From positions 1-57,294 of the forward strand of contig CALAMQ010000101.1 of NCBI GenBank assembly GCA_937925815.1: DNA of 57,294 nucleotides, given 5' to 3'. The translations under genes and the position numbers were made by a program. This document shows positions 2,209 through 19,990 of this stretch, piece by piece. The stretch is from an uncultured Granulosicoccaceae bacterium (GTDB lineage: Bacteria > Pseudomonadota > Gammaproteobacteria > CALCKW01). The notes under the pieces were generated by a model, which was not told where the DNA came from, did no database searches, and was given only the letters and a program-made list of their open reading frames with translations. Positions within the stretch are counted from its first letter, which is position 1; the number at the start of each line of letters is the position of its first letter.

Positions 2209-2535
2209 ATGAGCACCAAGAACCTCAACCGCTCCGCCATCATCGCCGGCTCACTCGCACTGGCTGTCAGCCAAATTGCTGTCATTCAAACTGCCGCAGC
2301 TGCAAGCAAAGAAAAATGCTACGGCGTGTCACTGGCTGGTCAAAATGACTGTGCGGCGGGCCCAGGCACAACCTGCGCTGGCACGTCCAAAGTTGACTAC
2401 CAGGGCAACGCTTGGACACTGGTACCAGCAGGCGACTGCGAGAAATTCGGCGTCGCAGAGACCATGGCGCAATTCGAACTGCCTGGCGACCGTGTTGGCT
2501 CACTCGAAGCACTCGACCGCGACCTCCCAGGTTAA
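2209..2535 (+). CDS. bufA: Bufferin precursor, DUF2282 family (BufA)
   Basis: This 108-residue protein has a secretion signal (residues 1-32, ending Ala-Ala-Ala-Ala) and a mature part with four cysteines at 37, 48, 56 and 77, in the DUF2282 pattern KCYGV...NDCAAG...TTCAGTS...[13 protein letters not shown]2282 proteins are known as bufferins: ribosomally made, exported peptides whose cysteines are modified by a DUF692 (MNIO) enzyme and which sequester copper in the periplasm (Caulobacter work). GGAG precedes the ATG. The next three genes, at 2611, 3473 and 4273, are the expected enzyme, partner and DoxX protein. Metal specificity in this organism is inferred. Confidence 0.88.
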
Positions 2536-2610
2536 TTAACGCAAGCCCTGAACTGCGATCCGGACTCGCCGGATCGCGTTCAATAAAAATCAGAGTGGAA
2601 CACCTCTAAC

Positions 2611-3486
2611 ATGCCTGTCACCACCCCCCCCATCACTCGACTGCCACAACGCGCCGGTGTGTGCTTCAAGCACCAACACTATGACGGCATCGTGCAAGAT
2701 CAACCTGATGTCGGCTGGTTTGAGGTTCACGCTGAAAACTACCTTGGCGCCGGCGGCAAGCCGTTTCAGATGCTGAGCTGGATTCGCGAGCGCTACGCGC
2801 TCTCAATACACGGGGTTGGCTTATCCATTGGGTCGCACAACGGCCTAGATGCCAACCACCTCGCACGCGTCGCAGCCCTGGTTGAGCGCTTTGAGCCGCA
2901 CTCCTTCAGCGAACACTTGGCGTGGTCAACCCACGACAACCGCTTCTACAGCGACTTACTGCCGGTGCCTTACAACCGCGAAACCGAAGACACCGTCTGC
3001 GCGCATATCAACCAAGTGCAAGACACCCTCAAGCGGCCCATGCTGCTAGAGAACCCCTCAAATTACCTCAGCCTCAACACCAGTACGTTGTCGGAGGCAG
3101 AACTGCTAAACAACATCGTGCGGCGCACCGGCTGCGGTCTATTGCTGGACGTTAACAACGTCTACATCTCCGCGCGCAATATTGGCTACAGCGCTGAAGA
3201 CTATATCCGCTCACTGCCGACAGACCGGATTGGTGAAATGCACCTCGCCGGGCATTTGGTTGACGACGCAGACCCAGCGGACCCACTGTTGATCGACACC
3301 CACGACCGCGCCGTGTGCGATGACGTCTGGGCACTCTACGCCTTTGCGCTCGAGACCTGCGGCGCGACGCCTACGCTGATCGAGTGGGACAGCAATTTGC
3401 CCGAGTGGGCAGAGCTCGCAGCCGACATGCAACGCGCTGAGTCGCTGCTCAACCCGTCAGAGACTGTGCGCTGTGCCAACGCTTGA
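2611..3486 (+). CDS. bufB: DUF692 multinuclear non-haem iron oxidative enzyme (BufB)
   Basis: This 291-residue protein is a DUF692/MNIO TIM-barrel enzyme, seen in the motifs FEVHAENYLG near residue 38, LLENPSNYLS near 147, LLDVNNVYIS near 180 and MHLAGH near 210. These carry the His, Glu, Asp and Asn ligands of the multi-iron site. Family members convert precursor cysteines to heterocycles, 5-thiooxazoles in bufferins. It follows bufA by 75 bases, and its end overlaps the DUF2063 gene by 14 bases, implying co-translation. It should act in the cytoplasm before bufferin export. Confidence 0.9.
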   Translation: MPVTTPPITRLPQRAGVCFKHQHYDGIVQDQPDVGWFEVHAENYLGAGGKPFQMLSWIRERYALSIHGVGLSIGSHNGLDANHLARVAALVERFEPHSFSEHLAWSTHDNRFYSDLLPVPYNRETEDTVCAHINQVQDTLKRPMLLENPSNYLSLNTSTLSEAELLNNIVRRTGCGLLLDVNNVYISARNIGYSAEDYIRSLPTDRIGEMHLAGHLVDDADPADPLLIDTHDRAVCDDVWALYAFALETCGATPTLIEWDSNLPEWAELAADMQRAESLLNPSETVRCANA

Positions 3487-4276
3487 GCGCTTCCAACAAC
3501 AAACCAGCGACGCTCTGCTAGACAGCGCCACCGCATGTCCGGAGGCCGTCAGTGGTGACAAACGCGAACGCCGCTTTGATGTTTACCGCAACAACCGCGC
3601 TGTCAGCCTGATTGAAAACCTCCAGGCGCTCTACCCCGCCGTTGCGCGCTTGGTAGGCCAAGAATTTTTCACCGCCGCCGCGCGCGCCTACATAGACGCC
3701 CACCCACCCACGGGTCCGGTGATGGCAGAATTTGGCGAGGCCTTTGGCGACTTCATCGCAGCGTTGTCTGGCGCAAAAAGCATCCCGTACATACGCGACG
3801 TTGCGCGCATTGAATGGTGTCGCAACGCGGCCTACAACGCCTCGGACGCACCGGTGTTGTCATTGGAGGCGCTCGCAAGCGTGCCACCCGACACGCTGCC
3901 GGAACTTCGCCTAGATCCGCATCCGGCGCTGCACACCGTCACATCGCGCTGGCCGTCAGGCAGTATCTGGGCGGCGACGCAGAGACCCGCTGGCACGGAC
4001 GCACCCGCTGTCGACATGCGCACCGGCGAGCAAATTGCCATCACCCGTCCCGCCTGGGACGCCGACGTTCACATCCTCACGCAGCAGAGTGCGCAATTCC
4101 TGCACGCTCTGACGCAAGGCTCGACCATTGGCGACGCCGCAGCAAGCCAACTCGATCTCGACCCGGCGTTCGACGCCGGGCCTCACTTAGTTCACGTTCT
4201 GTCGCTCGGCGCGTTTACCGCCATTGCACAGACTCTCACCGCCGACCCCACGGCAACACCACAGGTTTCACCATGA
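3473..4276 (+). CDS. bufC: DUF2063 family partner protein (BufC)
   Basis: The 267-residue protein starts at a GTG inside the end of bufB and reads PTLERFQQQTSDALLD, the usual N-terminus of DUF2063 proteins. An FDVYRNNRAVSLIENLQALYP segment follows near residue 35, cut here only in describing it, and marks the N-terminal helical domain. Members pair with DUF692 enzymes and are thought to act as the precursor-recognition partner. The older label of putative DNA-binding domain is not convincing in this context. Its stop overlaps the DoxX start (ATGA). Confidence 0.85.
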   Translation: MPTLERFQQQTSDALLDSATACPEAVSGDKRERRFDVYRNNRAVSLIENLQALYPAVARLVGQEFFTAAARAYIDAHPPTGPVMAEFGEAFGDFIAALSGAKSIPYIRDVARIEWCRNAAYNASDAPVLSLEALASVPPDTLPELRLDPHPALHTVTSRWPSGSIWAATQRPAGTDAPAVDMRTGEQIAITRPAWDADVHILTQQSAQFLHALTQGSTIGDAAASQLDLDPAFDAGPHLVHVLSLGAFTAIAQTLTADPTATPQVSP

Positions 4277-4830
4277 TCCGCCTACTCACATCTGCCCACG
4301 ATTCTGTTTTCAACGCTCTGCAAACCCATGTCGGACCGTGGCTGCCCGGCCTGCTCGCGCGCTTCACCTTCGCCGCCGTGCTGCTGGTCTACTACCTCAA
4401 CTCCGCCAAGACCAAAGTTGGCGAGGGCATAACGGGATTCTTTTCGATTGATGACGGCGCCTACTTCCAAATGTTGCCCAAAGTGATTGAGCAATTTGGC
4501 TACGACGCGACCCAAGTACCGCTGTTCCCGTACAAACTTATTGTGTTTGCCGGCACCTATGCCGAATTTATTTTGCCGTTATTGATTGTCGCGGGCCTGT
4601 TCACCCGTCTGGCGGCGCTGGGCATGATTGGTTTCGTATTCGTGCAATCGTTCGTGGATGTCACCGGCCACCATGTCGATGCCGAGACGGTCGGCGCCTG
4701 GTTCGACCGCTTCTCCGACTCAACCATTCTCGACCAACGCACCCTGTGGGTCTTCTTGCTGGTCTACCTCGTGATCTACGGCGCGGGCAAGCTCTCACTC
4801 GACGGTTTGCTGCTCGCCAAGCGGCGCTGA
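4273..4830 (+). CDS. bufD: DoxX family membrane protein (BufD)
   Basis: The protein has 185 residues with four predicted transmembrane helices, at about residues 20-38, 85-110, 115-135 and 155-175, in DoxX order. The ATG at 4273 overlaps the bufC stop; the longer upstream frame is a shadow of bufC. DoxX proteins recur as the fourth gene of bufferin operons, where their role is unclear (membrane redox or maturation support has been suggested). A strong terminator follows 24 bases downstream, so this is the last gene of the operon. Confidence 0.85.
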   Translation: MIRLLTSAHDSVFNALQTHVGPWLPGLLARFTFAAVLLVYYLNSAKTKVGEGITGFFSIDDGAYFQMLPKVIEQFGYDATQVPLFPYKLIVFAGTYAEFILPLLIVAGLFTRLAALGMIGFVFVQSFVDVTGHHVDAETVGAWFDRFSDSTILDQRTLWVFLLVYLVIYGAGKLSLDGLLLAKRR

Positions 4831-17345: not shown

Positions 17346-17840
17346 TCAGGTCGATCCGCAGGCCGCGCATGCGCTGGCACACGGGTTTTTCGCAGCGCAA
17401 GGGTTGGCGGCGGCACAGGGATTGGCACCACATGCTGCGCCGCACGCTCCACAAGCTCCACACGCCGCGCAAGGATTTGAAGCGCATGGGTTGGCCGCAG
17501 CGCAGGGATTGGCCGCTGCGTATTCGAGCTGAATTTTTTCGACGTAGGCTGTCAACGCCGCCAACTCACGCGACTGCCAAGGCAGCGGCTCTGCCGCCAT
17601 CGGCACAATCATGCAAAGCTGCACCATGCTCTCAGCATCCACTTCATCGAGACCTGCAAGATCAAATGCCATCTTCACAGAGTGAGGATACGCTTGCGTG
17701 AATGTTGCGTTGTACAAGTTCATATCCGCATGGCAGGAAATACACGCCAAGCCGTTCGAACTCAATGAGGTGTCAGCAAACAACGACTCGCCAAGCCTCT
17801 CCATCGCCTCGCGACTGGCGACATACTTGCGCTCACCCAA
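17346..17840 (-). CDS. c-type cytochrome domain with Cys-rich tail, in frame with the Cys-rich gene upstream
   Basis: From the TTG at 17840 this frame encodes 164 residues. They comprise a class I cytochrome-like domain with haem motif CISCH (17730-17744), the usual preceding LGESLFADTSLSSNG, and a likely distal Met in CMIVPMAAEPLPW. A tail of some 50 residues follows, with 12 Cys in NPCAAANPC-type repeats. The frame has no stop upstream until the TGA at 18117, and beyond that TGA the same frame is the secreted Cys-rich protein starting at 18527. The domain on its own has no signal peptide, although haem attachment at CxxCH happens in the periplasm. It therefore most likely began as the C-terminal part of one 393-codon gene (17346-18527). 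An independent start at 17840 is possible but weak. Confidence 0.7.
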   Translation of the reverse strand: MGERKYVASREAMERLGESLFADTSLSSNGLACISCHADMNLYNATFTQAYPHSVKMAFDLAGLDEVDAESMVQLCMIVPMAAEPLPWQSRELAALTAYVEKIQLEYAAANPCAAANPCASNPCAACGACGACGAACGANPCAAANPCAAKNPCASACAACGST

Positions 17841-17889
17841 GGGACGAACAACCTTGTCTTGCGGGATTTGATTTCCCGCTGCAGCGCAG

Positions 17890-18240
17890 GGGTTGGCACC
17901 GCAGGCGCCGCAAGCCCCGCAGCCGCCTTTGGCTGCGCACGGGTTCTTAGCCGCACACGGGTTGGCACCGCAGGCCGCGGCGCAAGCCCCACACGCACCG
18001 CAACCGCCACAAGCCCCACAGGCGGCCTTGGCCGCGCAAGGGTTCTTGGCAGCACACGGGTTGGCACCGCAGGCCGCGGCGCAGGCCCCACACGCACCGC
18101 AACCGCCACAGGCCCCTCAGGCAGCTTTAGCAGCGCACGGGTTCTTGGCAGCACACGGGTTGGCACCACAGGCAGCGGCACAGGCGCCGCATGCACCGCA
18201 TGCACCGCAACCGCCACAAGCCCCACAGGCGGCCTTGGCT
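17890..18240 (-). repeat. Tandem 99/108-bp repeats in the Cys-rich gene
   Basis: The anchor CAACCGCCACA (plus strand) recurs at 18001, 18100 and 18208, periods of 99 and 108 bases, with a fourth diverged copy near 17915. Each unit encodes about 33-36 residues of CGACGGCGAC and NPCAAKNPC type. The copies at 18001 and 18208 share TGT (Cys) where the middle copy has TGA (18117-18119). Confidence 0.85.
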
Positions 18241-18527
18241 GCGCATGGGTTTTTAGCGGCACACGGATTCTTGGCTGCGCAAGGATTCGCACAACAGGCG
18301 CTGGCGCAAGGATCGGCACAGCAGTCATTCTCTGCAGCACAGGGGTTCTTGGCCGCACAAGGGTTCTTGGCGGCACACGGTGTCGCGCCGCTCGATGCCG
18401 TGCACGCAGCGAGAACAATGGTGTCGCTTGCTTCAGCGGGACTGATTAATGCCAACTCGCCAACGCCATAACTCGCGCCCAAAGCAAACAGCACCGATGC
18501 TGTGATTTTGTTGAGCTTCATTGTCAT
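18117..18527 (-). CDS. Secreted Cys-rich repeat protein (ends at an in-frame TGA)
   Basis: Read conventionally, this is a 136-residue protein with a Sec signal peptide (residues 1-33, ending SPAEAS) and a mature part almost wholly of NPCAAK and CGAC repeats, with 21 Cys. AGAGGA lies 9 bases before the ATG. It is clearly homologous to the protein at 19565-19990: both start with ITASVL-type signals and have (I/V)LAACTAS at the mature N-terminus. The gene stops at TGA 18117-18119, which replaces a TGT Cys codon conserved in neighbouring repeats. The frame then continues for 256 sense codons into the cytochrome domain. I do not recognise a characterised family. Dense Cys suggests metal or thiol chemistry in the periplasm; this is inference. 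Confidence 0.8.
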   Translation of the reverse strand: MTMKLNKITASVLFALGASYGVGELALISPAEASDTIVLAACTASSGATPCAAKNPCAAKNPCAAENDCCADPCASACCANPCAAKNPCAAKNPCAAKAACGACGGCGACGACGACAAACGANPCAAKNPCAAKAA

Positions 18528-18735: not shown

Positions 18736-19476
18736 TTATTCCACCGAAGCAAGTGCCGCGTCGACGCGAGCAATTTGCTCTGACACAGAAATGGTGATTT
18801 CGCCGGGCACCTCCAGCTCGCGGTGCTCAAACACACTCTTACCGGGGTTGGCCTCTCGCCACAGCTCAAAGCACTGATCTCGGTGAACAAGCAGTGACGC
18901 AATTTCTGCACTGAACAAACACATCACCGCCGATATCCAACGGTTGGTTGGCCAACTTGGATTGGCGTGCTGGATCGCGAAATTACCCAAGTGAGGCACC
19001 ACGTGCTCCGCCGGTACGTAGTGTTCAGCGGTTACCCACTGGTTGGTGCTAAACAGACCGAGCATATGTCCATCTCTGTCCATTGATATCGCTATGAGGT
19101 GGACTGTTTTGCTGGTCGCGTTGGCCATGTCACAGGACATCGCCCTGTCTTCGCCCATCATTGATGCGAGGTAAGGTGTGCGAAAAAAGGTGTGAAAATG
19201 CCCGTGCTCACCAGTCTCGCCGCGGTGAGCGTGGTAGTAATACTGACTGCCGCAACGGCTGTCGAGGACATCATTTTCGGGGTAATGGTTAAATTCGTAA
19301 AACGTGCCCTGGCCGCGCAGCATCTCACCCACAAGATTTAATCCGCCGCGCTCTAACACTTCAGTACAGCGTTGTGCTTCCTGCCCAGCAGTTTGCATTG
19401 CTTGCAATCTTGGCAATGGCAACAGAGTCAGATCCGGCAGTTCAACCGCTGGAAAGTTCACGATGGCATCTCGCAT
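18736..19476 (-). CDS. Conserved protein with His-rich motif (possibly DUF6969)
   Basis: This 246-residue protein has no signal peptide or membrane helix and is probably cytosolic. Its most striking segment is YHAHRGETGEHGHFHTFFR at about residues 81-99, with His82, 84, 91, 93 and 95, preceded by EFNHYP (His64). This could be a metal site. From memory it resembles the uncharacterised family DUF6969, with moderate certainty. It lies between two paralogous Cys-rich secreted protein genes on the same strand, 88 bases after one and 208 before the other. A role in making or loading those proteins is a reasonable guess but unproven. Confidence 0.75.
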   Translation of the reverse strand: MRDAIVNFPAVELPDLTLLPLPRLQAMQTAGQEAQRCTEVLERGGLNLVGEMLRGQGTFYEFNHYPENDVLDSRCGSQYYYHAHRGETGEHGHFHTFFRTPYLASMMGEDRAMSCDMANATSKTVHLIAISMDRDGHMLGLFSTNQWVTAEHYVPAEHVVPHLGNFAIQHANPSWPTNRWISAVMCLFSAEIASLLVHRDQCFELWREANPGKSVFEHRELEVPGEITISVSEQIARVDAALASVE

Positions 19477-19564: not shown

Positions 19565-19990
19565 TTATGAACCGCTGCACGCCCCGCAACCGGCCTTGGC
19601 AGCGCACGGGTTCTTGGCCGCGCACGGGTTGGCCCCGCAAGCCGCGCCACACGCGCCGGCACACGGGTTCTTGGCAGCGCACGGATTGGCGGCGGCACAG
19701 GGGTTCGCAGCACAAGGGACTGCACAGCATTTGGCCGCACAAGGATCAGTGCAATCTTCAGCTTCCGCCGCGCACGGGTTCTTGGCCGCACACGGGTTGG
19801 CTGCAGCACATGGATTTTTAGCAGCGCATGGGTTTTTCTTGGCAGCGCATGGGTTGGCGCCGCACGAGGCCGTACAGGCTGCGAGGATAATGGTTTCATT
19901 CGCTGACGTGTTTTCAGCCAAGACGACACCGCTGCTGACACTTGCGCCAATGGCAAGCAGGACAGACGCGGTGATTGTGTTCATTTTCAT
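19565..19990 (-). CDS. Secreted Cys-rich repeat protein, stand-alone paralogue
   Basis: The 141-residue protein has a signal peptide (about residues 1-25, ending VVLAEN) and a mature part with 21 Cys in NPCAAK, NPCAAA and CGAC repeats and almost no other side chains. Short breaks (EAEDCTDPC, KCCAVPC) match the order ENDCCADPC, SACCANPC in the paralogue at 18117-18527, so the two share one template. Unlike that gene, it ends normally (TAA) with no cytochrome extension. It is first in the minus-strand locus. The 297 bases upstream (19991-20287) hold no gene and should contain the promoter. Function unknown; periplasmic metal binding or a post-translationally modified peptide are possibilities. 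Confidence 0.82.
   Translation of the reverse strand: MKMNTITASVLLAIGASVSSGVVLAENTSANETIILAACTASCGANPCAAKKNPCAAKNPCAAANPCAAKNPCAAEAEDCTDPCAAKCCAVPCAANPCAAANPCAAKNPCAGACGAACGANPCAAKNPCAAKAGCGACSGS

Follow-up and report, generated by a model that had tools for sequence, protein, structure and literature searches.

An in-frame TGA codon that interrupts the gene for a Cys-rich cytochrome is probably a recent nonsense mutation, which would leave a truncated secreted Cys protein. The codon lies on the minus strand at positions 18117-18119 of the window, the whole 57,294-nucleotide stretch of DNA analysed here, and follows 136 codons of a frame that opens at 18527 with a signal peptide (MTMKLNKITASVLFALG...) and continues with NPCAAK and CGACG repeats. 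Translation of 18527-17346 showed that the next stop is the TGA at 17346-17348, and that the 256 sense codons in between encode further repeats, a haem site (CISCH) and a tail rich in Cys, so the coordinates and counts of a preliminary description of this locus all proved correct. The gene and its neighbours comprise the following features.

18117-18527, minus strand: short frame read by translation, signal peptide plus NPCAAK/CGACG repeats, 136 aa, ending at the TGA
18117-18119, minus strand: in-frame TGA, codon 137, the third codon of repeat unit 2, where units 1 and 3 read TGT
18126-18233, minus strand: repeat unit 1, 108 bp
18027-18125, minus strand: repeat unit 2, 99 bp, containing the TGA
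17928-18026, minus strand: repeat unit 3, 99 bp, entirely downstream of the TGA and, the TGA excepted, with only synonymous differences from unit 2
17346-18116, minus strand: rest of the frame, with 256 sense codons before the stop TGA at 17346-17348
17529-17873, minus strand: mono-haem cytochrome c domain, PF21342 SoxA/TsdA-type
17730-17744, minus strand: CISCH haem attachment motif
17349-17528, minus strand: C-terminal NPCAAx/CGACG tail
18736-19476, minus strand: DUF6969 protein (PF22308), conserved neighbour of the cytochrome
19565-19990, minus strand: stand-alone secreted NPCAAK protein, 141 aa, 21 Cys, a separate source of the short form

The haem domain proposed downstream of the TGA was borne out by the CISCH motif and by a match to the SoxA/TsdA cytochrome c family (PF21342) that, at 27.9 bits, stands barely above the gathering cut-off of 27. 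Unlike SoxA, this cytochrome is mono-haem and flanked by NPCAAK sequences, and it scores far below the cut-off of the NCBIfam SoxA equivalog (20.2 against 110 bits). Weak similarity to the CCP/MauG di-haem peroxidases (PF03150) is confined to the segment around CxxCH, in an alignment of about 30 residues that scores below the cut-off, and only a single CxxCH is present here. The translation from the TGA to the haem domain contains no hydrophobic signal sequence, which rules out an internal start with its own signal peptide in that frame, and a terminator scan directly 3' of the TGA found none. The likeness of the short product to the stand-alone paralogue was confirmed by counting: the two have 136 and 141 residues, respectively, and 21 Cys each.

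The region downstream of the TGA is, as judged from homology, genuinely coding and not open by chance, because its homologues form a large family whose frames are intact. We compared 86 relatives, consisting of the best 80 of 209 cytochrome-domain relatives in the genome collection, four from a class-wide search, one further genome (G017) and the same-genus genome G001. The usual architecture of this family is a signal peptide, NPCAAK repeats, a mono-haem cytochrome c and an NPCAAK tail. A continuous frame from signal peptide to haem was detected in 80 of the 86 by an automatic test and in one more by eye (L099, whose signal peptide features no early Lys/Arg). Three loci could not be judged, two at contig edges (L041 and L089) and one with a run of N (L096), leaving 83 assessable relatives, of which 81 have an uninterrupted frame. 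This agrees with the earlier proposal that the cytochrome half has no signal peptide of its own and depends on the one upstream. The comparison of orthologues at the TGA codon, which had been suggested as a check, revealed no in-frame stop between signal peptide and haem in any of the 83.

Two relatives are disrupted in other ways: the Halospina denitrificans cytochrome (L079, 4001-4617) is frameshifted immediately before the haem domain, and a copy in a Rhodoferax MAG (L088, 2827-3679) has no in-frame signal peptide. These cases suggest that broken copies arise now and then, while the TGA at 18117-18119 appears private to this genome within the sample. Within the genus, the cytochrome that G001 (locus L005) encodes at the syntenic position has an apparent signal peptide of its own and no NPCAAK repeats, and the genome has no DUF6969; the repeats and DUF6969 are thus absent together. 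A cytochrome of this kind is uninformative as a same-genus comparison for the TGA codon, and neither G002 nor G003 has a close cytochrome copy.

Constraint around the stop could be read from the three tandem units themselves. A parsimony count gives at least 16 synonymous changes among the units and no missense change; the one nonsense change, the TGA, is their sole non-synonymous difference and, as previously described, occupies a position that is TGT (Cys) in both neighbouring units. Under neutrality approximately 25-29% of changes would be synonymous, and the probability that 16 of 16 neutral changes are synonymous is about 3e-10 to 3e-9. Downstream of the TGA, units 2 and 3 differ at seven codons, all synonymously. 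The cytochrome domain departs from the family consensus at only three of 37-38 strongly conserved columns, and the same-genus homologue is likewise non-consensus at two of those three. Such synonymous-only divergence shows that the frame downstream of the TGA was translated and under selection nearly all the time since the units arose, until very recently, and together with the conserved haem domain it excludes an old pseudogene. The same constraint does not discriminate between a recent mutation, an error and current readthrough. The locus usefully illustrates how a stop can be dated as recent from the constraint between tandem repeat units, without a second strain.

A recent nonsense mutation, whether fixed or a strain polymorphism, would have struck the second of three near-identical repeat units in a gene that forms part of a conserved three-gene cassette, encoding a stand-alone secreted NPCAAK protein, a DUF6969 protein and a secreted NPCAAK-repeat mono-haem cytochrome c. 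The signal peptide would still export the product, so that only a 136-residue periplasmic Cys-rich stub would result, and little or no cytochrome would be made beyond background UGA leakage. The stop is absent from the relatives and no further decay has accumulated, as expected of a recent nonsense mutation, but the absence of further decay is equally expected of a functional readthrough gene. Belinky et al. argue that pseudogenisation is poorly marked by a lone in-frame stop when the gene is not otherwise degraded (PMC7918605). The present gene resembles the bacterial lone-stop genes of that study in having one stop, no other degradation and retained constraint, and differs from them in that the stop is known from a single genome and not conserved between orthologues.

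We consider it unlikely that the TGA is a sequence or assembly error in an intact gene whose true codon is Cys. Such an error would be in keeping with a draft assembly of 183 contigs and with the change of a single base within a 99-bp tandem repeat while the rest of the gene is intact. However, distinct synonymous differences set the three units apart in the assembly, and neither unit 1 nor unit 3 has an A at the site where it creates the TGA; mis-joined units would therefore not yield a TGA, which leaves repeat mis-assembly unsupported as the origin of the A and would require a plain base-call error. It also seems rather improbable that the TGA is genuine but leaky, read at low efficiency by a near-cognate tRNA-Trp to give mostly the short product and a little full-length cytochrome. 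The fully preserved downstream frame would fit such leakage, as would the leakiness of UGA in enteric bacteria, where Trp is inserted according to work cited in PMC7918605, but functional readthrough would be recognised by a stop and a downstream frame both conserved between species, and this stop is conserved in no relative. Moreover, a tRNA-Trp type that reads UGA has a 4-bp anticodon stem (PMC13092985), whereas in the tRNA-Trp gene of this genome, read by eye, that stem has the ordinary 5 bp and position 24 is G. No tRNA with a UCA anticodon was found among the 33 tRNA matches located, an incomplete set that includes no tRNA-Cys, so neither a suppressor-type tRNA-Trp nor a UCA tRNA was seen in this non-exhaustive search, and no RNA structure specific to the TGA was detected.

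It is very doubtful that the stop is maintained or reversible, either as a programmed source of a second product or as a switch that would be undone by loss or conversion of a 99-bp unit. The TGA lies in a tandem unit with near-identical in-frame units on either side, which would allow this, and the short product is indeed similar to the stand-alone paralogue. However, the short form already has a stand-alone gene of its own, both here and beside many relatives, in several of which it adjoins the cytochrome gene (for example L025, L028, L035, L042, L046, L078 and L092). The cytochrome gene therefore needs no programmed stop, and two products by design are disfavoured; no other genome has a stop at this position and no second allele was seen.

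Selenocysteine is an extremely improbable reading of the TGA, despite its location at a Cys position. The selA, selB and selC searches that the preliminary description had proposed came out against it in this 99% complete genome: SelA had no matches, SelB had only sub-threshold matches consistent with other translational GTPases, and the single tRNA-Sec match over the cut-off is a tRNA-Ser with anticodon TGA. A SECIS hairpin just past 18117 fared no better, as the RNA that follows the TGA does not fold more stably than shuffled sequences (z 0.59), the TGT-bearing unit 3 forms the same core hairpin as the TGA-bearing unit, and the window contains no Rfam match. In addition, the relatives have many Cys repeats, none with a TGA. 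Genome-wide reassignment was rejected because 32 of the 42 frames of at least 150 aa in the window end in TGA. Among the four options originally offered, a recent nonsense mutation thus fits best, or else a sequence error, which was not among them; selenocysteine fell away with its missing machinery, two products are disfavoured by a stop private to this genome and a stand-alone gene at hand, and readthrough may occur at a low level, with nothing found that is specific for it. As a case of recoding the gene is ordinary, a lone nonsense codon without recoding machinery.

The cassette around the cytochrome is a more interesting lead than the stop codon. The DUF6969 gene lies between the two Cys-rich genes (18736-19476, minus strand), and at 66 of 82 loci the cytochrome gene has a DUF6969 gene nearby. 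A sample of 369 genomes from the class yielded 28 other genomes with DUF6969, and by our own count 21 of these 28 loci (within L173-L220) feature a nearby ORF with several xPC repeats. These ORFs encode small secreted proteins whose repeats are NPCAAK-like in some cases and NPCAPS, SPCSL or SPCGL in others. No ORF with multiple xPC repeats was found at any of 51 control loci from unrelated searches, a contrast that is indicative since the controls were shorter than some of the test loci. Several SPCSL/SPCGL loci (L207, L213, L220 and others) also encode a protein with a YeeE/YedE-like membrane protein motif beside the repeat proteins and DUF6969, which hints at a role in the handling of sulfur. 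A cluster present at 20 cytochrome loci has a Sulf_transp protein (PF04143) as its representative. The predicted DUF6969 model is of high confidence (pLDDT 91.5), and a fold search with it returned no PDB match at E ≤ 0.001 (best E 0.47). Many His, Glu and Asp residues are invariant in the DUF6969 alignment. A literature search on NPCAAK, DUF6969 and Cys-rich or NPC-repeat cytochromes found nothing; the cassette is widespread and undescribed, and the association of DUF6969 with xPC repeats is new.

A comparable arrangement is found in the bufferins (Buf1/Buf2), which are MNIO-modified Cys RiPPs defined by neighbouring MNIO and DUF2063 genes (PMC12452194). As in bufferin clusters, Cys-rich proteins with signal peptides are encoded here beside a conserved protein that has no evident signal peptide. 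The likeness is an analogy only, since the neighbour is DUF6969 and not MNIO plus DUF2063, and the proteins feature NPCAAK repeats and not a Buf1/Buf2 domain. The only MNIO match in the genome lies elsewhere in the window, at 2611-3486. It belongs to a separate region of the window, 2209-4830, that is probably a Buf1-type bufferin cluster with the following features.

2209-2535: small signal-peptide protein with Cys motifs, recognised by eye
2611-3486: MNIO enzyme, PF05114, E 5e-104
3473-4276: ORF in the position of the partner protein, assigned by position alone
3814-4830: region that contains a DoxX match

The recurrent pairing of DUF6969 with xPC-repeat proteins suggests that DUF6969 may act on or with these proteins. 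By analogy with MNIO and the bufferins, we tentatively propose, as a possibility, an undescribed system in which DUF6969 would act on small secreted proteins with tandem xPC repeats (NPCAAK, NPCAPS, SPCSL, SPCGL), and in which the NPCAAK cytochrome would serve as a substrate or partner that bears haem, perhaps in the handling of metals or sulfur. The association suggests a testable role for an uncharacterised protein family and, if confirmed, DUF6969 and the xPC-repeat proteins would represent a new Cys-repeat export system.
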